From: Luteibacter sp. OK325
GTDB lineage: Bacteria; Pseudomonadota; Gammaproteobacteria; Xanthomonadales; Rhodanobacteraceae
Direction of reading: 5' to 3'
Assembly: GCF_003050935.1 (NCBI RefSeq)
Contig: NZ_QAOX01000007.1
Span: forward strand, 186,001 to 250,000
DNA length: 64,000 bases
Shown here: piece after piece, positions 15,664 through 24,343 of the stretch
Numbering within the stretch: position 1 is the stretch's first letter
How the letters are laid out: each line of letters starts with the position of its first letter
The notes under the pieces: generated by a model
What the model was told of the DNA's origin: nothing
The model's database searches: none
What the model saw: only the letters and a program-made list of their open reading frames with translations
Program-made: the position numbers and the translations under genes

Positions 15664-16929
15664 ATGCGCGTTGCCGTCATCGGTTCGGGCATCGCCGGGC
15701 TCGCTTCTGCCTGGTTGCTGTCGCGAAGGCACGCAGTAACCCTGTTCGAAGCCAACGACTATCCCGGTGGGCATACGCATACGCACGATATCCATCTCGA
15801 CGGCCGCCAGTACACGGTCGACACGGGATTCATCGTGCACAACCGTGCGCATTACCCGTTGCTGTCGGCCTTGTTCGATGAACTCGGCGTGGCGACCCAG
15901 CCGACCACCATGAGCTTCTCGGTACGCAACCAGGCCAGCGGCCTCGAATACAACGCGGCCACCCTGGACACGCTGTTCTGCCAGCGCCGTAACCTGCTGT
16001 CGCCACGTTTCCTGGGCATGATTCGCGACCTGATGCGCTTCTACCGCGAGGCCCCGGCCTTGCTGGACGAGGCAAGCCAGGATTCCACCCTCGGCGAATA
16101 CCTGGCGCATGGCGGCTATGGCGCGGCATTTCGCGACGAGCACCTCGTGCCGATGGCCTCGGCGCTCTGGTCGTCGCCGCCGACCGCGGTGCTCGGCTTC
16201 CCCGCGCGCTACCTCGTGCAGTTCATGGCCAACCACCAGATGCTCAGCCTGTCCGGTCGACCGGAATGGCGCGTGGTAAGCGGTGGGTCGCGCCACTACA
16301 TCGATGCGATGCGCGCCCGTTGGTCGGTGCACGAACGCCTGAACACGCCGGTCGTCGCGGTGCGGCGTCATCACGACACCGTGGATGTGGTCACGCACGC
16401 TGGTACCGAGCCTTTCGACGACGTGGTGCTCGCCTGCCACAGTGACCAGTCCCTGGCACTGCTGACCGATGCCGACGCAGCCGAACGCTCCATTCTCGGC
16501 GCGATGACGTACCAGACCAATGACACCGTGCTGCATACCGACGCGTCCTTGCTGCCACGTTCGCGTAAGGCATGGGCGGCATGGAACGCATTCATTCCAG
16601 CCGATCCTGGCGATGCCTGCACGGTCAGTTACTGCATGAACCTGCTGCAGGGATTCACCTCGCCCGATCCCTTCGTCGTCACCCTCAACCGCAGCCACGC
16701 CATCGACCCGCGGCGGGTCCTTCGCCGCATGAGTTACGAGCACCCGGTGTACACGCGCGAATCCGTCGCCGCGCAGATGCGCAAGACCGAGATCCAGGGG
16801 CGTCGCCGCGTGTGGTTCGCCGGGGCGTACTGGGGCTGGGGATTCCATGAGGACGGCATGCGCAGCGCTGTCGAACTGGCACGAGACTTCGAGGGCGTCG
16901 TGGCCACGCGTACGCCGGCGTTGGCATGA
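15664..16929 (+). CDS. FAD-dependent amine-oxidase-like protein (COG2907 type)
   Basis: The ATG at 15664, two bases after the desaturase stop, gives 421 residues. The N-terminus MRVAVIGSGIAGLASAWLL is a GxGxxG dinucleotide-binding fold, followed by FEANDYPGGHTHT, the signature of the amine-oxidase-like FAD proteins found beside DUF1365 and Cfa-like genes. The C-terminus (VWFAGAYWGWGFHEDG) closes the FAD site. It probably acts on a lipid acyl chain, as an oxidase or dehydrogenase. From memory, homologues in the Rhodobacter sphaeroides RpoE regulon are linked to the singlet-oxygen response. The exact reaction here is unknown. Confidence 0.88.
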   Translation: MRVAVIGSGIAGLASAWLLSRRHAVTLFEANDYPGGHTHTHDIHLDGRQYTVDTGFIVHNRAHYPLLSALFDELGVATQPTTMSFSVRNQASGLEYNAATLDTLFCQRRNLLSPRFLGMIRDLMRFYREAPALLDEASQDSTLGEYLAHGGYGAAFRDEHLVPMASALWSSPPTAVLGFPARYLVQFMANHQMLSLSGRPEWRVVSGGSRHYIDAMRARWSVHERLNTPVVAVRRHHDTVDVVTHAGTEPFDDVVLACHSDQSLALLTDADAAERSILGAMTYQTNDTVLHTDASLLPRSRKAWAAWNAFIPADPGDACTVSYCMNLLQGFTSPDPFVVTLNRSHAIDPRRVLRRMSYEHPVYTRESVAAQMRKTEIQGRRRVWFAGAYWGWGFHEDGMRSAVELARDFEGVVATRTPALA

Positions 16930-17690
16930 GCGATCGCTTCGCCAGCGCCGTCTACGAAGGCATCGTGACGCATCATCGTCACGCGCCGCGCGAGCACGCT
17001 TTCAGCTACCGCATGGCCCAGCTCTATCTGGACCTGGACGAGATTGACCAGGTCTTCGCTGATCGTTGGCTGTGGTCGGCGAAGGGGCGCAGCTTTGCCG
17101 AGTTCCGGCGAGCCGACTACCTCGGTGCGCCGGACCTGCCGTTAGTCGAGGCTGTTCGCGAACGCGTGAAAGCTTCGCTTGGCTATCGGCCGGTCGGCCC
17201 CGTACGCGTGCTCACGCACCTGCGCTACGCGGGTGTCGTGTTCAATCCGGTGACGTTCTATTACTGCTTCAAAGCGGATGGCATCACGCTCGACTGCGTG
17301 GTCGCCGAGATCACCAACACGCCGTGGCGTGAACGACATAGTTATGTGCTTCGCGTGGACGACAGTGCCGAAGGGCATGTCATCGACGCATCCTTCCCCA
17401 AAGCCTTCCACGTGTCGCCGTTCATGCCCATGGATCGCGCGTATCGATGGCGCTTCACCTGTCCGGATAAGCAGCTCCGCGTGCACATGGACGTGCTCCG
17501 CGAGGGCGTGCGTGAGTTCGACGCGCACCTGTCGCTTCACCGCCGCGAGCTCACCGGTGCCTCGCTGGCGCGTGTCCTATGGCGCTACCCGTTGATGACG
17601 GCGAAGGTCGTCGGATCGATTCATTTCGAAGCGCTTCGGCTCTGGCTCAAGCGCAACCCCATTCACGACCACCCGACGAGAAACCCATGA
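16926..17690 (+). CDS. DUF1365 family protein
   Basis: The 254-residue protein overlaps the preceding gene by an ATGA. It starts SAVYEGIVTHHRHAPREHAF and contains HLRYAGVVFNPVTFYYCF and PFMPMDRAYRWRF, both typical of DUF1365. The family almost always lies between the FAD protein and the Cfa-like methyltransferase. Its biochemical role is not established to my knowledge. There is no signal peptide or clear membrane segment, so it is presumably cytoplasmic or membrane-associated and acts on modified phospholipid acyl chains with its partners. Confidence 0.88.
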   Translation: MSDRFASAVYEGIVTHHRHAPREHAFSYRMAQLYLDLDEIDQVFADRWLWSAKGRSFAEFRRADYLGAPDLPLVEAVRERVKASLGYRPVGPVRVLTHLRYAGVVFNPVTFYYCFKADGITLDCVVAEITNTPWRERHSYVLRVDDSAEGHVIDASFPKAFHVSPFMPMDRAYRWRFTCPDKQLRVHMDVLREGVREFDAHLSLHRRELTGASLARVLWRYPLMTAKVVGSIHFEALRLWLKRNPIHDHPTRNP

Positions 17691-18940
17691 ACGCCATCGT
17701 TCGCAACGAAGACGCTGTGCCGGCCTCGCGAGGCCTGCGCTTTCTCCGCCGCCTGTTGCTGGCGCGGATGGAAGGGATGCGTCACGGCCGCCTGGTGATC
17801 GACGATCCATTGGGACGTGTCACGCTGGGCCAGTCGATGGACATTCCAACGGACCTGGTCGTGCATGTGCGGGTGGACGACCTTGCGTTCTACCGGGCGG
17901 TCGCCGCCAATGGCAGCGTCGGTGCGGGCGAGGCCTTCATGGATGGGCTTTGGCGCTGTGACGATCTGGTTGGACTGATTCGTCTGCTGGTGCGTAACCG
18001 CGATCGCCTCGACAGCATGGAATCGGGACTGGCGAGGCTCGGCGGTCTTGCCATGAAGAGCTGGCATGCGCTGCGCCGGAACACGCGTGAAGGCAGCCGT
18101 CGCAACATTGCCGCTCATTACGACCTGGGCAACGATTTCTTCGGTCTCTTCCTCTCGCCGGACCTGATGTATTCGTCGGCTTTCTGGGAAGGTGACGACG
18201 ACACGCTGGAAATGGCCTCGACGCGCAAGCTCGACCGTGTCTGCCAGTGGCTGGACCTGAAACCCGGTGACCGGGTGATCGAGATCGGCACCGGCTGGGG
18301 CGGATTCGCGGTGCATGCCGCCCGGTACTACGGCTGCCACGTGACCACCACGACCATCTCCCGTGAACAGCACGCGCTTGCCGCCATGCATGTGGAGGAA
18401 GCCGGCATAGGTGATCGCGTCAGCCTGTTGCTCGAGGACTATCGCGACCTGACCGGCACCTACGACAAGCTGGTGTCGATCGAGATGATCGAGGCCATCG
18501 GTGCAAGCTACCTCGACGTGTATTTCGCCAAGCTCGGCAGCCTGCTGCGGCCAGGGGGCAGGGCGCTGGTGCAGGCGATCACCATCGAAGACCACCGTTA
18601 TGCCCAGGCGCTGGCCTCGGTCGACTTCATCAAGCGCCACGTCTTCCCGGGCAGCTTCATTCCGTCGATCCACGCGATGCTTGCGGCGAAGACACGCGTC
18701 ACGGACCTCGCGCTGATTCGTCTTCACGACTTCGGACTCTCATATGCGCGCACGCTCGAAGCATGGCGCGAGCGGTTCCTCGCCGGCCTGGGGCAGGTGC
18801 GGGAGCAGGGCTTTGACGAGCGCTTCATCCGTTCGTGGGAGTTCTACATGGCGTATTGCGAGGGCGGTTTCCGCGAACGATCGATCGGGGTGTCGCACCT
18901 GTTGATGGAGAAGCCGCTGCACGGGAGTACGACGGGATGA
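17687..18940 (+). CDS. Cyclopropane-fatty-acyl-phospholipid synthase family methyltransferase
   Basis: The ATGA overlap at 17687 fixes the start; the product has 417 residues. It contains the Cfa hallmarks HYDLGNDFFGLFLSPDLMYSS and the SAM-binding loop VIEIGTGWGGFAVHAA. Two positions differ from E. coli Cfa. The cysteine of its YSCAY motif is serine here (MYSSAFW), and the HTIG segment is replaced by QAITI. It therefore belongs to the COG2230 branch that travels with DUF1365 and FAD proteins, and the product may be a methylated rather than a cyclopropanated acyl chain. It uses SAM to modify a double bond in membrane phospholipid. Confidence 0.9.
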   Translation: MNAIVRNEDAVPASRGLRFLRRLLLARMEGMRHGRLVIDDPLGRVTLGQSMDIPTDLVVHVRVDDLAFYRAVAANGSVGAGEAFMDGLWRCDDLVGLIRLLVRNRDRLDSMESGLARLGGLAMKSWHALRRNTREGSRRNIAAHYDLGNDFFGLFLSPDLMYSSAFWEGDDDTLEMASTRKLDRVCQWLDLKPGDRVIEIGTGWGGFAVHAARYYGCHVTTTTISREQHALAAMHVEEAGIGDRVSLLLEDYRDLTGTYDKLVSIEMIEAIGASYLDVYFAKLGSLLRPGGRALVQAITIEDHRYAQALASVDFIKRHVFPGSFIPSIHAMLAAKTRVTDLALIRLHDFGLSYARTLEAWRERFLAGLGQVREQGFDERFIRSWEFYMAYCEGGFRERSIGVSHLLMEKPLHGSTTG

Positions 18941-19473
18941 TGGCTGCGTGGGCCAGTTTCATTGGCTATGAAGTGGTCTGGTTCGTCGCGGTGGTCTTCG
19001 CTGGTCGTGGCGAGCCGTGGCCGGGGGTGATCGCCGCGGTGCTGTTCGTGGGCTGGCAGCTCGGGGTTTTGCCGCATCGTCGGGCCGCCTTGCAGGTGCT
19101 GGTGATCGCCGTCCTGTGCGGCGTCGTCATCGACGGTCTCGTGCATGGCCTGCATCTGGCCGACTACGCGGCGGCCGCACCGGCGCTGCCGACCGGCGGC
19201 GCGCCCTTGTGGATTCTCTGTCTCTGGGCCTGTTTCTCGTTGACGCTGGGCGGACCATTGCGAGCCCTGGGTACGCGCCCCTTGCTCGCCGTGGTGCTCG
19301 GCGGCATCGGTGGCCCGCTCGCGTATGCGGGAGCCGCGCACGGCTGGGAAGCGCTGACGTTTCGCGCCCCGGAATGGCAGGCGCTCGCTTTGCTTGGCAT
19401 CGGCTGGGGCGTGGCGATGCCCTTGCTCGCGGCGCTGACCCATCGGTGGTCCATGACGAGGGCGACGGCATGA
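18937..19473 (+). CDS. DUF2878 family membrane protein
   Basis: The 178-residue protein starts at ATGATG, overlapping the previous stop. It is almost entirely hydrophobic, with about five membrane segments (for example VLVIAVLCGVVIDGLVHGL and LLAVVLGGIGGPLAYAGAA). Size and composition match DUF2878, a family known mainly from this type of lipid gene cluster. No catalytic motif is visible. It may scaffold the enzymes at the inner membrane or move a lipid intermediate; both ideas are inference. Confidence 0.8.
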   Translation: MMAAWASFIGYEVVWFVAVVFAGRGEPWPGVIAAVLFVGWQLGVLPHRRAALQVLVIAVLCGVVIDGLVHGLHLADYAAAAPALPTGGAPLWILCLWACFSLTLGGPLRALGTRPLLAVVLGGIGGPLAYAGAAHGWEALTFRAPEWQALALLGIGWGVAMPLLAALTHRWSMTRATA

Positions 19474-20258
19474 GCACGACGAACACCTTGCTGGTGATCT
19501 GGCTGGCCGCCGCCTGGTTGATGACGGCGGGATGGGCCTGGCAACGGCGCAAGAAGAACGCAGGCATCGTCGATGTGCTCTGGTCGACCGGTGTCGGCGG
19601 TGCGGCGGTGCTGGCGGGCTTGATCGGCTCAGGTGCGCTGGGGACGCGTTTCGCGGTGGCGATACTCGGTGGCCTTTGGGGTGTTCGCCTGGCATGGCAC
19701 CTGTGGCGTCGCGTGGCCGGTGAAGCGGAAGACGGCCGCTATCGCGCCCTTCGCGAACACTGGCGCGGCAGCCAGACAAAGTTCTTCGGTTTCTTCCAGT
19801 TCCAGGCTTTCCTCGTCGGTGTTTTCGCCGTGCCATTTCTGGCAGTGGCTGCGAATCCGAACGCATCGTTCTCCGCCATCGTGGCGGCCGTCGTGATCTG
19901 GCTTGTCAGCGTCGGCGGTGAATCCATCGCGGATCGACAACTGGCCGACTTTCGCGCCGCCCCCGCTAACCAGGGTAAAACGTGCCGCGCCGGGCTGTGG
20001 CGTTACTCGCGCCACCCGAATTACTTCTTCGAGTGGTTGCACTGGTTCGCCTACGTGGTACTGGCGATCGGTTCGCCGCTGTGGTGGCTGGCCTGGAGCG
20101 GTCCGGTGGTGATGTTCCTGTTCCTGCGCTTCGTCAGTGGCGTGCCTTACACCGAGACGCAAGCGTTGCGCTCGCGCGGCGACGAATACCGTCGCTACCA
20201 ACGCGACACCCCGATGTTCTTTCCGTGGTTTCCGAAACATGAGAGCGATAACGCATGA
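19470..20258 (+). CDS. DUF1295 / steroid 5-alpha-reductase-like membrane protein
   Basis: An ATGA overlap sets the start at 19470, giving 262 residues. The protein has about six membrane segments. Its C-terminus carries the conserved block GLWRYSRHPNYFFEW and then DEYRRYQRDTPMFFPWFP, typical of the DUF1295/steroid reductase C-terminal superfamily. That superfamily includes NADPH-dependent double-bond reductases and isoprenylcysteine-type methyltransferases. Reduction of an unsaturated lipid intermediate is plausible. The frame is open upstream to 19017 inside the DUF2878 gene, but that part is a shadow. Confidence 0.85.
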   Translation: MSTTNTLLVIWLAAAWLMTAGWAWQRRKKNAGIVDVLWSTGVGGAAVLAGLIGSGALGTRFAVAILGGLWGVRLAWHLWRRVAGEAEDGRYRALREHWRGSQTKFFGFFQFQAFLVGVFAVPFLAVAANPNASFSAIVAAVVIWLVSVGGESIADRQLADFRAAPANQGKTCRAGLWRYSRHPNYFFEWLHWFAYVVLAIGSPLWWLAWSGPVVMFLFLRFVSGVPYTETQALRSRGDEYRRYQRDTPMFFPWFPKHESDNA

Positions 20259-21337
20259 ACACCGCCGTCCGTCCCGCTGCATATGCCCGTGAAGATCGCG
20301 CCGCGTCCGGCTTGCTCGGCCTCGCGGAGCGTGGGCTTGTCCCCGATATCCTGCTGCGTGCCGGTATTCGACGGCTGTGCGCCAAACGGCTTGCGGACGA
20401 GGAGGCCGGCGGACTCGCGGCCGTGGCGGCTCGGTATCAGAAGCGCATCGAAGGGCTGAAGCAGAGCGAGGTCGCCATTCACACGGACGCCGCGAACGGC
20501 CAGCACTACGAGCTGCCGGCACGCTTCTTCGAACTGTGCCTTGGCCCGCGTCTGAAGTATTCGGGTTGCTACTACACAACTGGAGCCGAGTCGCTGGCCG
20601 ATGCAGAGGAGGCGATGCTGTCGCTTTACGGCGCACGTGCCGAGCTGGCCGACGACCAGTCGATTCTCGAGCTGGGCTGCGGGTGGGGCTCGCTCACCTT
20701 GTGGATGGCCCAGCGCTATCCGCGTTCGCGCATCACGGCCGTCTCCAATTCGGGTAGCCAGCGTCGCCACATCGAGGCCAGTTGCACGGCGCGTGGCATC
20801 CACAATGTCAACGTGATCACCGCGGATGCGAACACGCTCGAACTGGGTGCCAGCCAGTTCGACCGCTGCGTATCGGTGGAGATGTTCGAGCACATGCGCA
20901 ACTACGAAACCCTCCTCTCGCGCATTAGCCTGTGGTTGCGCCCGGGCGGCAAGCTCTTCGTCCATATTTTTGCCCACCGGACCCTGATGTACCCGTTCGA
21001 GACAGAAGGCAAGGACGACTGGATGGGCCAGCATTTCTTCACCGGCGGCCTGATGCCGGCCTCGGATACCCTGCTCTGGTTCCAGAACGACCTGACCATC
21101 GAGCGCCGCTGGCATGTGGACGGCACGCACTATCAGCGCACGGCCAATCACTGGCTGGCGAACCAGGATCTGGCCCGTGAGGAAATCATGAAAGTGCTGA
21201 AGGGGACGTACGGCGACGCGGCGGGGCTCTGGTTCCAGCGCTGGCGGATGTTCTGGATGGCCTGTGCCGGGTTGTTCGGTTACGCAGACGGGCAGGAATG
21301 GCTCGTGGCCCACTACCGCTTCGTCAAACCGCGCTAG
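20255..21337 (+). CDS. SAM-dependent methyltransferase, second Cfa-like protein
   Basis: The 360-residue protein overlaps the DUF1295 gene by an ATGA. It shows the Cfa-related motif QHYELPARFFELCLG, then YSGCYY, then the SAM loop ILELGCGWGSLTLWMA. The variant sequence SVEMFEHMRNYETLL follows. This places it with the Cfa/coclaurine-N-methyltransferase-like branch, distinct from the gene at 17687. Two different SAM enzymes in one lipid operon suggest successive modifications of the same acyl chain. It is the last gene of the coupled run; 168 bp without a gene follow. Confidence 0.87.
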   Translation: MNTAVRPAAYAREDRAASGLLGLAERGLVPDILLRAGIRRLCAKRLADEEAGGLAAVAARYQKRIEGLKQSEVAIHTDAANGQHYELPARFFELCLGPRLKYSGCYYTTGAESLADAEEAMLSLYGARAELADDQSILELGCGWGSLTLWMAQRYPRSRITAVSNSGSQRRHIEASCTARGIHNVNVITADANTLELGASQFDRCVSVEMFEHMRNYETLLSRISLWLRPGGKLFVHIFAHRTLMYPFETEGKDDWMGQHFFTGGLMPASDTLLWFQNDLTIERRWHVDGTHYQRTANHWLANQDLAREEIMKVLKGTYGDAAGLWFQRWRMFWMACAGLFGYADGQEWLVAHYRFVKPR

Positions 21338-21908: not shown

Positions 21909-24101
21909 ATGCAAGCTATCGTCGATACCACCTGGGCGCCTGGCGCCGCCGGCCTTCGTTCCAGCGAAGGCACGGCGGCGATCCGATGTAACGCCGACGA
22001 ATCGCTCCTCGCCCGCTATAATGCCGTTCGTGCGCGCACCGAAGCGCTGGTCGCCTCGCTCGACGCCGAAGACATGGTCGTCCAGTCCATGCCGGACGCC
22101 AGCCCTGCGAAATGGCACCTCGCGCATACCACCTGGTTTTTCGAGACCTTCGTGCTCGGGCCCAACGTACCGGGTTACGAGGTGTTCGATGCCGACTTCG
22201 GTTACCTCTTCAATTCCTACTACGAGGCCGTCGGTCCGCGGCATCCGCGACCGTTGCGTGGCTTGCTCACGCGTCCCTCCGTGGCTCAGGTGATCGCCTA
22301 TCGCCATCACGTGGACTCGCACATGCGTGCCTTCCTGGGCGAATGGCCCTCGGCGGAACTGGAGGCGTTGTTGCGCCTGGGCTTCGCGCATGAGGAGCAG
22401 CACCAGGAACTGCTGGTGATGGACATGCAACACCTGTTCGCGCAGTCCCCGCTCAAACCGGCCATCGATGCGGCGTGGCCCGCGCCGGCACCTGGCCCGA
22501 GCGGACGCTTCCGTCGTATCGGTGGCGGGCCGGTGCGTATCGGTGCCGTGGACGAGCGCTTCGCCTTCGACAACGAAGGCCCGCGGCATACGGCGTGGCT
22601 GGAACCGTTCGAAATGTCGGACCGGCTCGTGACCAACGGTCAATGGCTGGCCTTCATGGCGCTGGGCGGCTATCGCCGCGCGGACCTGTGGCTCTCCGAC
22701 GGCTGGGCCCAGCGGCAGGAGGAAGGCTGGGAGGCGCCGCTGTACTGGCGGCGCGAGGACGACGTCTGGTCGCACATGACGCCGGGTGGCTGGAAGCCGG
22801 TCGACCCGGATGCCGCCGTGACCCATGTCAGCTATTACGAGGCCGAGGCTTTCGCACGCTGGGCCGGCGCACGTCTGCCGACCGAAGCCGAGTGGGAACA
22901 TGCCGTGCGCACGCGCAACGACCTGGACCAGGTCGACGACGTGGCCTGGCAGTGGACGGCGAGTGCCTATTCGCCGTATCCCGGCTTCCGTGCCACCGAC
23001 GATGCCGTCGGTGAATACAACGGCAAATTCATGATCGGGCAGATGGTGCTGCGTGGTGGCGCCAGCGTCACGCCGCCGCATCATGTTCGCCCTTCGTACC
23101 GCAACTTCTACCGCCCGGGGCAGCGCTGGATGTTCTCCGGCTTGCGTCTGGCGAGGGATGTAGGCAGCTCGCCCGATGACGATCGCCTGACCTTCCTGCG
23201 CGACACGCTGGCTGGTTTGTCCGCGTCGCCGAAGGCGTTCTCACCGAAGTACTTCTACGATGCCGCCGGATCGGCCTTGTTCGAAGCCATTTGCGTCACG
23301 CCGGAGTATTATCCCACGCGTACGGAAACGGCTTTGTTGCATGACATCGCACCTGCGCTGGCGGCAACCATTCCCGACGGTGCCGTGCTGCTCGAACTGG
23401 GCAGCGGCGCGAGCGACAAGACGCGTGTGCTCCTGGATGCGGCGCCGCAGATCTCGGCTTACGTACCGGTGGATATCAGCGTCGATGCTCTCAACGGCGC
23501 GGTGGACCGGTTGCGCTCCGCGTATCCCGGGCTGGCCGTGCATCCCGTGGTGGGCGATTTCACCCGCGCGATCGACGTGCCCGAGGCCCTTGCAGGCCGG
23601 CCGATCGTGGCATTCTTCCCGGGTTCCACGATCGGTAACTTCGTTCCCGAAGAAGCGATCGCGTTGTTGCGTTCGGTACGCGAGCGGCTCGGTGCCGCGG
23701 CGCACTTCATCGTCGGTGCCGATCAGGTCAAGTCGGTCGATACGCTCATCGCTGCTTACGACGATGCCGAGGGCGTGACCGCCGCCTTCAATCGCAACGT
23801 GCTGGTGCGGATCAACCGGGAACTGGGCGGCGACTTCGACCCGCAGGCTTTCGAGCATCGCGCGGTATGGAACGCGGAGCTCGAGCGCATCGAGATGCAT
23901 CTGGTGAGTCGGGTAGCGCAGCAGGTCACGGTGGCGGGGCAGACGTTCCGTTTCGCCGTCGGCGAGTCTATCCACACCGAGAACTCGCACAAGTTCACGA
24001 GCGCGTCGTTTGCGCATCTGGCCGGGGCAGGCGGGTGGCGGGTAGACCGGGAGTGGATTTCGCCAGATCCCGCCTTCGGCGTCTTCGCCCTCGTCGTATA
24101 A
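21909..24101 (+). CDS. EgtB-EgtD fusion: ergothioneine sulfoxide synthase plus histidine trimethyltransferase
   Basis: One frame of 730 residues combines both core ergothioneine enzymes. Residues about 30-200 are the DinB-like half of EgtB, with the iron ligands predicted as H73 (in LAHTTW) and H161/H165 (in HEEQHQE). Residues about 205-417 are the FGE-type half (PTEAEWEHAV, LRGGASVTPPHHVRP, FSGLRLARD). After about 10 residues the EgtD methyltransferase begins (RDTLAGLSASPKAFSPKYFY, FEAICVTPEYYPTRTE, SAM loop LELGSGASDKTR at 495-506). The C-terminal domain is of the EgtD type, not the OvoA type. EgtD would trimethylate histidine to hercynine, which EgtB would couple to a thiol. No EgtE lyase gene is nearby. 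Confidence 0.9.
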   Translation: MQAIVDTTWAPGAAGLRSSEGTAAIRCNADESLLARYNAVRARTEALVASLDAEDMVVQSMPDASPAKWHLAHTTWFFETFVLGPNVPGYEVFDADFGYLFNSYYEAVGPRHPRPLRGLLTRPSVAQVIAYRHHVDSHMRAFLGEWPSAELEALLRLGFAHEEQHQELLVMDMQHLFAQSPLKPAIDAAWPAPAPGPSGRFRRIGGGPVRIGAVDERFAFDNEGPRHTAWLEPFEMSDRLVTNGQWLAFMALGGYRRADLWLSDGWAQRQEEGWEAPLYWRREDDVWSHMTPGGWKPVDPDAAVTHVSYYEAEAFARWAGARLPTEAEWEHAVRTRNDLDQVDDVAWQWTASAYSPYPGFRATDDAVGEYNGKFMIGQMVLRGGASVTPPHHVRPSYRNFYRPGQRWMFSGLRLARDVGSSPDDDRLTFLRDTLAGLSASPKAFSPKYFYDAAGSALFEAICVTPEYYPTRTETALLHDIAPALAATIPDGAVLLELGSGASDKTRVLLDAAPQISAYVPVDISVDALNGAVDRLRSAYPGLAVHPVVGDFTRAIDVPEALAGRPIVAFFPGSTIGNFVPEEAIALLRSVRERLGAAAHFIVGADQVKSVDTLIAAYDDAEGVTAAFNRNVLVRINRELGGDFDPQAFEHRAVWNAELERIEMHLVSRVAQQVTVAGQTFRFAVGESIHTENSHKFTSASFAHLAGAGGWRVDREWISPDPAFGVFALVV

Positions 24102-24112
24102 GCGCGCTCCGT

Positions 24113-24342
24113 GTAGGAGCCGCTTCAGCGGCGAAAGCCAGGTTGCCTCGGCCCCCATCGCCGGCATAGCCGGCTCCTACAAGAGCCCCATGTGGGAGCC
24201 GCTTCAGCGGCGAAAGCCAGGTTGCGGCGACGCCATCGCCGGCATAGCCGGCTCCTACAAGAGCCCCATGTGGGAGCCGCTTCAGCGGCGATAGCCAGGC
24301 TGCCTCGGTCCCCATCGCCGGCATAGCCGGCTCCTACAAGAG
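24113..24342. repeat. Three tandem REP doublets, about 78-bp period
   Basis: Units begin at 24113, 24192 and 24270. Each has GTRGGAGCCGCTTCAGCGGCGA, a 20-base spacer, then CCATCGCCGGCATAGCCGGC and TCCTAC, followed by AAGAGC. The two REP types in a unit differ in their cores but face each other. The copies differ by only a few bases, mainly in the spacer. The array lies between the ends of the EgtB-EgtD gene and pgaD, which converge. Confidence 0.93.
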
Positions 24343-24343
24343 C

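Follow-up and report, generated by a model that had tools for sequence, protein, structure and literature searches.

The window, a 64,000-nucleotide stretch of the Luteibacter sp. OK325 genome (4.94 Mb, 21 contigs), was analyzed around a gene that joins egtB and egtD. The features found there, together with a second egt pair of the same genome, are collected in Table 1. A preliminary description had read the single frame as a complete EgtB followed by a complete EgtD, and profile analysis gave the same result, with the curated equivalog cut-off of each NCBIfam model passed (Table 1); the EgtD domain scanned alone reached 379.7 bits against TIGR03438. Along the 730-residue protein, the Pfam order was DinB_2, FGE-sulfatase, and Methyltransf_33. 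The nearest solved chain to the EgtB domain was 6o6l_A, and over whole domains the protein was 49–51% identical to type II EgtB and ~42% identical to EgtD. A library of viral folds returned low-similarity matches to methyltransferases and capping enzymes. Directly behind the stop codon of the fused gene, an 81-base repeat was found in three copies spaced by 79 and 78 bases.

Table 1. Features of the fused egt locus and of the second egt pair (positions in the window unless a contig is named)
Feature	Position	Strand	Basis or remark
DUF1365, CFA-synthase-like, DUF2878, DUF1295, and second CFA-like methyltransferase genes	16926-21337	+	cluster
DUF427 (PF04248) gene, 125 aa	21506..21883	+	PF04248, 104.2 bits (cut-off 22.1)
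Fused egtB-egtD gene	21909..24101	+	730 aa, ATG start, single unbroken frame
EgtB domain, type II sulfoxide synthase, residues 34-415	22008..23153	+	TIGR03440, 529.9 bits (cut-off 360)
H73 codon, putative iron ligand	22125..22127	+	alignment to 8qf6/6qki
Y104-Y105 codons	22218..22223	+	aligned with Tyr93-Tyr94 of CthEgtB, offset 11 to 8qf6
H161 to H165 codons, two putative iron ligands (H161, H165)	22389..22403	+	alignment
Linker, residues 416-428	23154..23192	+	gap between profile matches; length and sequence vary among relatives
EgtD domain, histidine methyltransferase, residues 429-727	23193..24089	+	TIGR03438, 376.4 bits (cut-off 290.9)
Putative SAM-binding loop of EgtD, residues 495-505	23391..23423	+	alignment
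81-base repeat, three copies	24106-24343		
Unfused egtB-egtD pair	contig 4, 209128-211310	-	frames overlap by four bases

The linker had been put at about 10 residues, and 13 residues separated the two NCBIfam matches; across fusions, the linker ranged from 5 to 29 residues and was unconserved. This bears on the idea that the fusion exists so that hercynine made by EgtD is passed directly to the EgtB site (channeling). Two points speak for such a role: consecutive steps are joined in one chain, and fungi, according to the available passages of PMC5066259, have also linked these activities, in reverse order. However, the linker is variable, the predicted structure of the fused protein does not fix the arrangement of the two domains (pTM 0.58), and OvoA aligned across both domains only at 16.2 Å rmsd. 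We consider channeling unlikely.

Alignment agreed with the earlier statement that the three iron histidines and the SAM loop are kept. H73, H161, and H165 fell on histidine positions that we take to be the iron binders of Chloracidobacterium EgtB, and with Y104 and Y105 they reproduced the type II EgtB signature of a three-histidine iron site plus a Tyr-Tyr pair. Residues 495–505, presumably the SAM-binding loop of EgtD, retained E496, G498, G500, and K504. The key positions were invariant or near-invariant across two alignments, of 52 and 88 fusions. In the predicted structure, the loop carrying the Tyr pair (102–116) had a pLDDT below 50. The role of Tyr93-Tyr94 in CthEgtB is described in PMC10903977, where, in the portion available, the nearest studied EgtB (Chloracidobacterium) is also said to prefer cysteine. 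Residues of the histidine and SAM site were likewise kept: counting the alignment by hand, G572 and N577 matched Gly161 and Asn166 of EgtD, residues named in the accessible part of PMC9103826. Compared with 12 Luteibacter relatives, dN/dS of the two domains was 0.04–0.15 and 0.05–0.18, suggesting that both are under purifying selection, although synonymous change was near saturation, which weakens this evidence.

Two independent egtB-egtD fusions in bacteria are reportedly mentioned in the abstract of a 2014 study by Jones and colleagues. A fusion of egtB and egtD in bacteria has already been mentioned in print: a sentence of PMC5066259 describes a bacterial gene fusion as possible in evolution, citing Jones, Doyle and Fitzpatrick 2014 (Gene 549:161), so the Luteibacter gene belongs to a known kind, the same two genes being joined as far as these extracts tell. 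Beyond that sentence, our literature search met no description of a bacterial EgtB-EgtD fusion in the passages it covered. In Methylobacterium, egtBD are tandem genes, according to the part of PMC4621440 at hand. Fungal Egt1/EgtA likewise unites both activities in a single chain, but the methyltransferase comes first there and last in Luteibacter; the N-terminal methyltransferase of A. fumigatus EgtA (PMC5066259, same passages) agrees with the reversed order claimed in the preliminary description, and a fungal Egt1 architecture was rejected. OvoA (8khq_A, 728 residues) resembles the fusion in overall shape, with the sulfoxide synthase first and the methyltransferase last, but its methyltransferase belongs to another family, as had been proposed. 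The C-terminal domain of the fusion scored above the EgtD cut-off, whereas the OvoA C-terminal model was unlisted at E up to 10 and the N-terminal model reached only 83.4 against a cut-off of 400; an OvoA identity was discarded. Chloracidobacterium thermophilum EgtB (PDB 6o6l, 6qki, 8qf6) is type II like the fused EgtB, yet unfused, and has a ~20-residue loop before the WxWT motif that the Luteibacter fusion does not have. Similarly, mycobacterial EgtD (PDB 4pim and others) is a stand-alone enzyme, unlike the fused EgtD.

A stop codon between neighboring genes, lost through a sequencing or assembly error at about 23150–23200, would also produce a single frame, and unfused neighbors are often in frame with a single stop between them. 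Nevertheless, this reading is refuted and has practically no probability left, since the frame ran through the junction in 19 of 23 Luteibacter genomes (source included) and in 66 of the best 80 loci from GTDB species genomes, in many genera. The relatives searched comprised 101 genomes, namely these 23 and 78 others, and among the matches listed, none of the 78 gave a stop-free match over the whole fused protein. Three of the four genus genomes lacking the fusion (G005, G015, and G020) had unfused genes, and the fourth (G006, 80% complete) had EgtD only among the matches listed. Five named Luteibacter loci were 77–84% identical to the fused protein, and the next locus 65%. Because the 80 loci (66 fused and 14 unfused) were the top matches among at least 580, 66 of 80 is not a rate. 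Outside Luteibacter, fusions occurred in Pseudomonas, Herbaspirillum, Panacagrimonas, Caulobacter, Asticcacaulis, Phenylobacterium, and Dyella psychrodurans. The last is from the same family as the source genome.

Within an even sample of Pseudomonadota, where loci with long frames were read from DNA and the remainder judged from the match table, 119 of 397 genomes matched, and nine, source included, were fused among the matches listed. Open frames of 750–800 aa had suggested many more fusions, but the DNA of 23 such loci revealed a single one (G308). The family of genome G390, which grouped with a Caulobacter in both the EgtB and the EgtD trees, gave matches in 44 of 60 genomes; judged from the match table, 28 had no junction stop and 14 were unfused, one match ran into a contig end, and another was ambiguous with an internal stop. 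Among the matches listed, plasmid records contributed 15 rows, 11 with two separate gene names and four without gene names. The fusion is therefore widespread in Pseudomonadota, including many Caulobacteraceae.

Quick, unrooted trees were built from 126 rows (70 fused and 56 unfused). The starting sets held 163 EgtB and 159 EgtD rows, from which near-copies and any row not carrying both domains were removed. In the EgtD tree, a branch with support 99 had every fused row on the same side. The EgtB tree needed three changes of state, and a single fused clade was not rejected (p-AU 0.291). The early branches inside the fused group were mostly Alphaproteobacteria, and Luteibacter was placed with Panacagrimonas, within a group shared by Pseudomonas, Herbaspirillum, and Asticcacaulis. 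At 13 of 14 unfused loci, the egtD frame opened directly after a single egtB stop, a share biased by a scan that favors in-frame pairs; such genes would become fused if a single stop were lost. The simplest reading is one fusion of an egtB-egtD operon, followed by lateral spread.

In addition, the source genome contains an unfused egtB-egtD pair, so that a fused copy and an unfused pair coexist in one genome, a situation that was not met in the sources our literature search reached, as far as their accessible parts go. The unfused genes belong to the same two families in the same order, each scoring above its NCBIfam cut-off, and share 51% (EgtB) and 45% (EgtD) identity with their fused counterparts. 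They differ from the fusion in being two overlapping genes and in the longer EgtB loop. The pair (L010:7108-9386) was flanked by mfd and an rlmL-like gene. One relative with an intact fusion (G008) showed an unfused egtB split over two frames (L180, G008:C1:1392000-1396500), through decay or sequencing error, and this egtB was not counted as fused.

Two complete copies in one genome might mean that the unfused pair makes ergothioneine while the fused copy has shifted to another substrate, for example selenium, as in SenA. The absence from the fused Luteibacter EgtB, near residue 340, of the ~20-residue loop found in the unfused copy would fit such a shift. However, the short form also occurs in unfused Bradyrhizobium and Rhodopila EgtB, and the loop is present in one fusion (L102). 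A search for an altered active site in the fused EgtB found none, all 14 of the 14 inspected positions being identical to those of the unfused copy. Furthermore, a SenA selenoneine synthase identity was rejected, as the fused and unfused proteins scored 349.5 and 338.4 against NF041186 (cut-off 420). A shift of substrate is thus very improbable.

Upstream of the fused gene, a DUF427 gene ends 25 bases away and probably forms one operon with it. It immediately preceded the fusion in 16 of the 19 genus genomes that carry one; one other (G004) had a copy elsewhere, and in G017 and G022 no DUF427 was found. Of the best 80 loci, DUF427 lay within the flanks (up to 6 kb per side, some shorter) at 18 of 66 fused and 3 of 14 unfused ones. 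DUF427 is uncommon, with 50 matches in 41 of 101 relatives; by our own estimate, which uses these relatives only, chance would place it near fewer than one of 80 loci. Because many loci are close kin, lineages rather than loci count here. In Luteibacter, Pseudomonas, and Herbaspirillum, DUF427 was upstream of egt, and Panacagrimonas had it on the other strand; it lay downstream of egt in a betaproteobacterial MAG (L051) and at unfused loci of Bradyrhizobium and Tardiphaga. More distant DUF427 genes were near egt genes in the unfused relatives G090 and G097. Against a strict partnership, DUF427 was present at only one of the fused loci named Caulobacteraceae (L057), six copies 50–61% identical to that of the window lay away from egt genes, and three unfused genus genomes had DUF427 not adjacent to egt. 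The lipid genes further upstream were also considered as a linked stress cluster, but this was set aside, as DUF1365, CFA, and DUF1295 had no counterpart in the regions flanking the five named Luteibacter loci.

DUF427 and MsrB share a beta-tent fold without significant sequence similarity, according to the available text of PMC4287342. We tentatively suggest that the DUF427 protein might take part in ergothioneine metabolism as an accessory factor not recognised before, perhaps acting at its sulfoxide or sulfenic-acid end. In the portions of the literature searched, this linkage was not met, and no source naming both ergothioneine and DUF427 was found. The linkage is the most useful new lead, and it gives a directly testable hypothesis on a domain whose structure is solved (3djm) but which has no known function.

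Taken as a whole, the fused protein is very probably a bifunctional, O2-dependent ergothioneine enzyme that most likely uses cysteine, arose from an egtB-egtD operon by stop loss, and was acquired horizontally. The C-terminal EgtD domain would trimethylate histidine with SAM to hercynine, and the N-terminal type II EgtB domain would then join hercynine to a thiol, most likely cysteine, with iron and O2 to give the hercynyl-thiol sulfoxide. Ergothioneine would be completed by a C-S lyase whose gene lies elsewhere. No EgtE or EgtC match in the source genome passed its cut-off (best 93.3 against 400 and 30 against 218.65, respectively), leaving the last step without a named gene; sub-cut-off matches say little, since control genomes give them too (14 of 14 for EgtE and 10 of 14 for EgtC). 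The stop between the two genes would have been lost in an ancestral operon, and the fused gene transferred into Luteibacter beside the resident unfused pair. The locus would thus provide a natural bifunctional ergothioneine-making enzyme, probably taking cysteine directly, and Luteibacter may allow the two steps to be compared, within one cell, between a fused and an unfused form.
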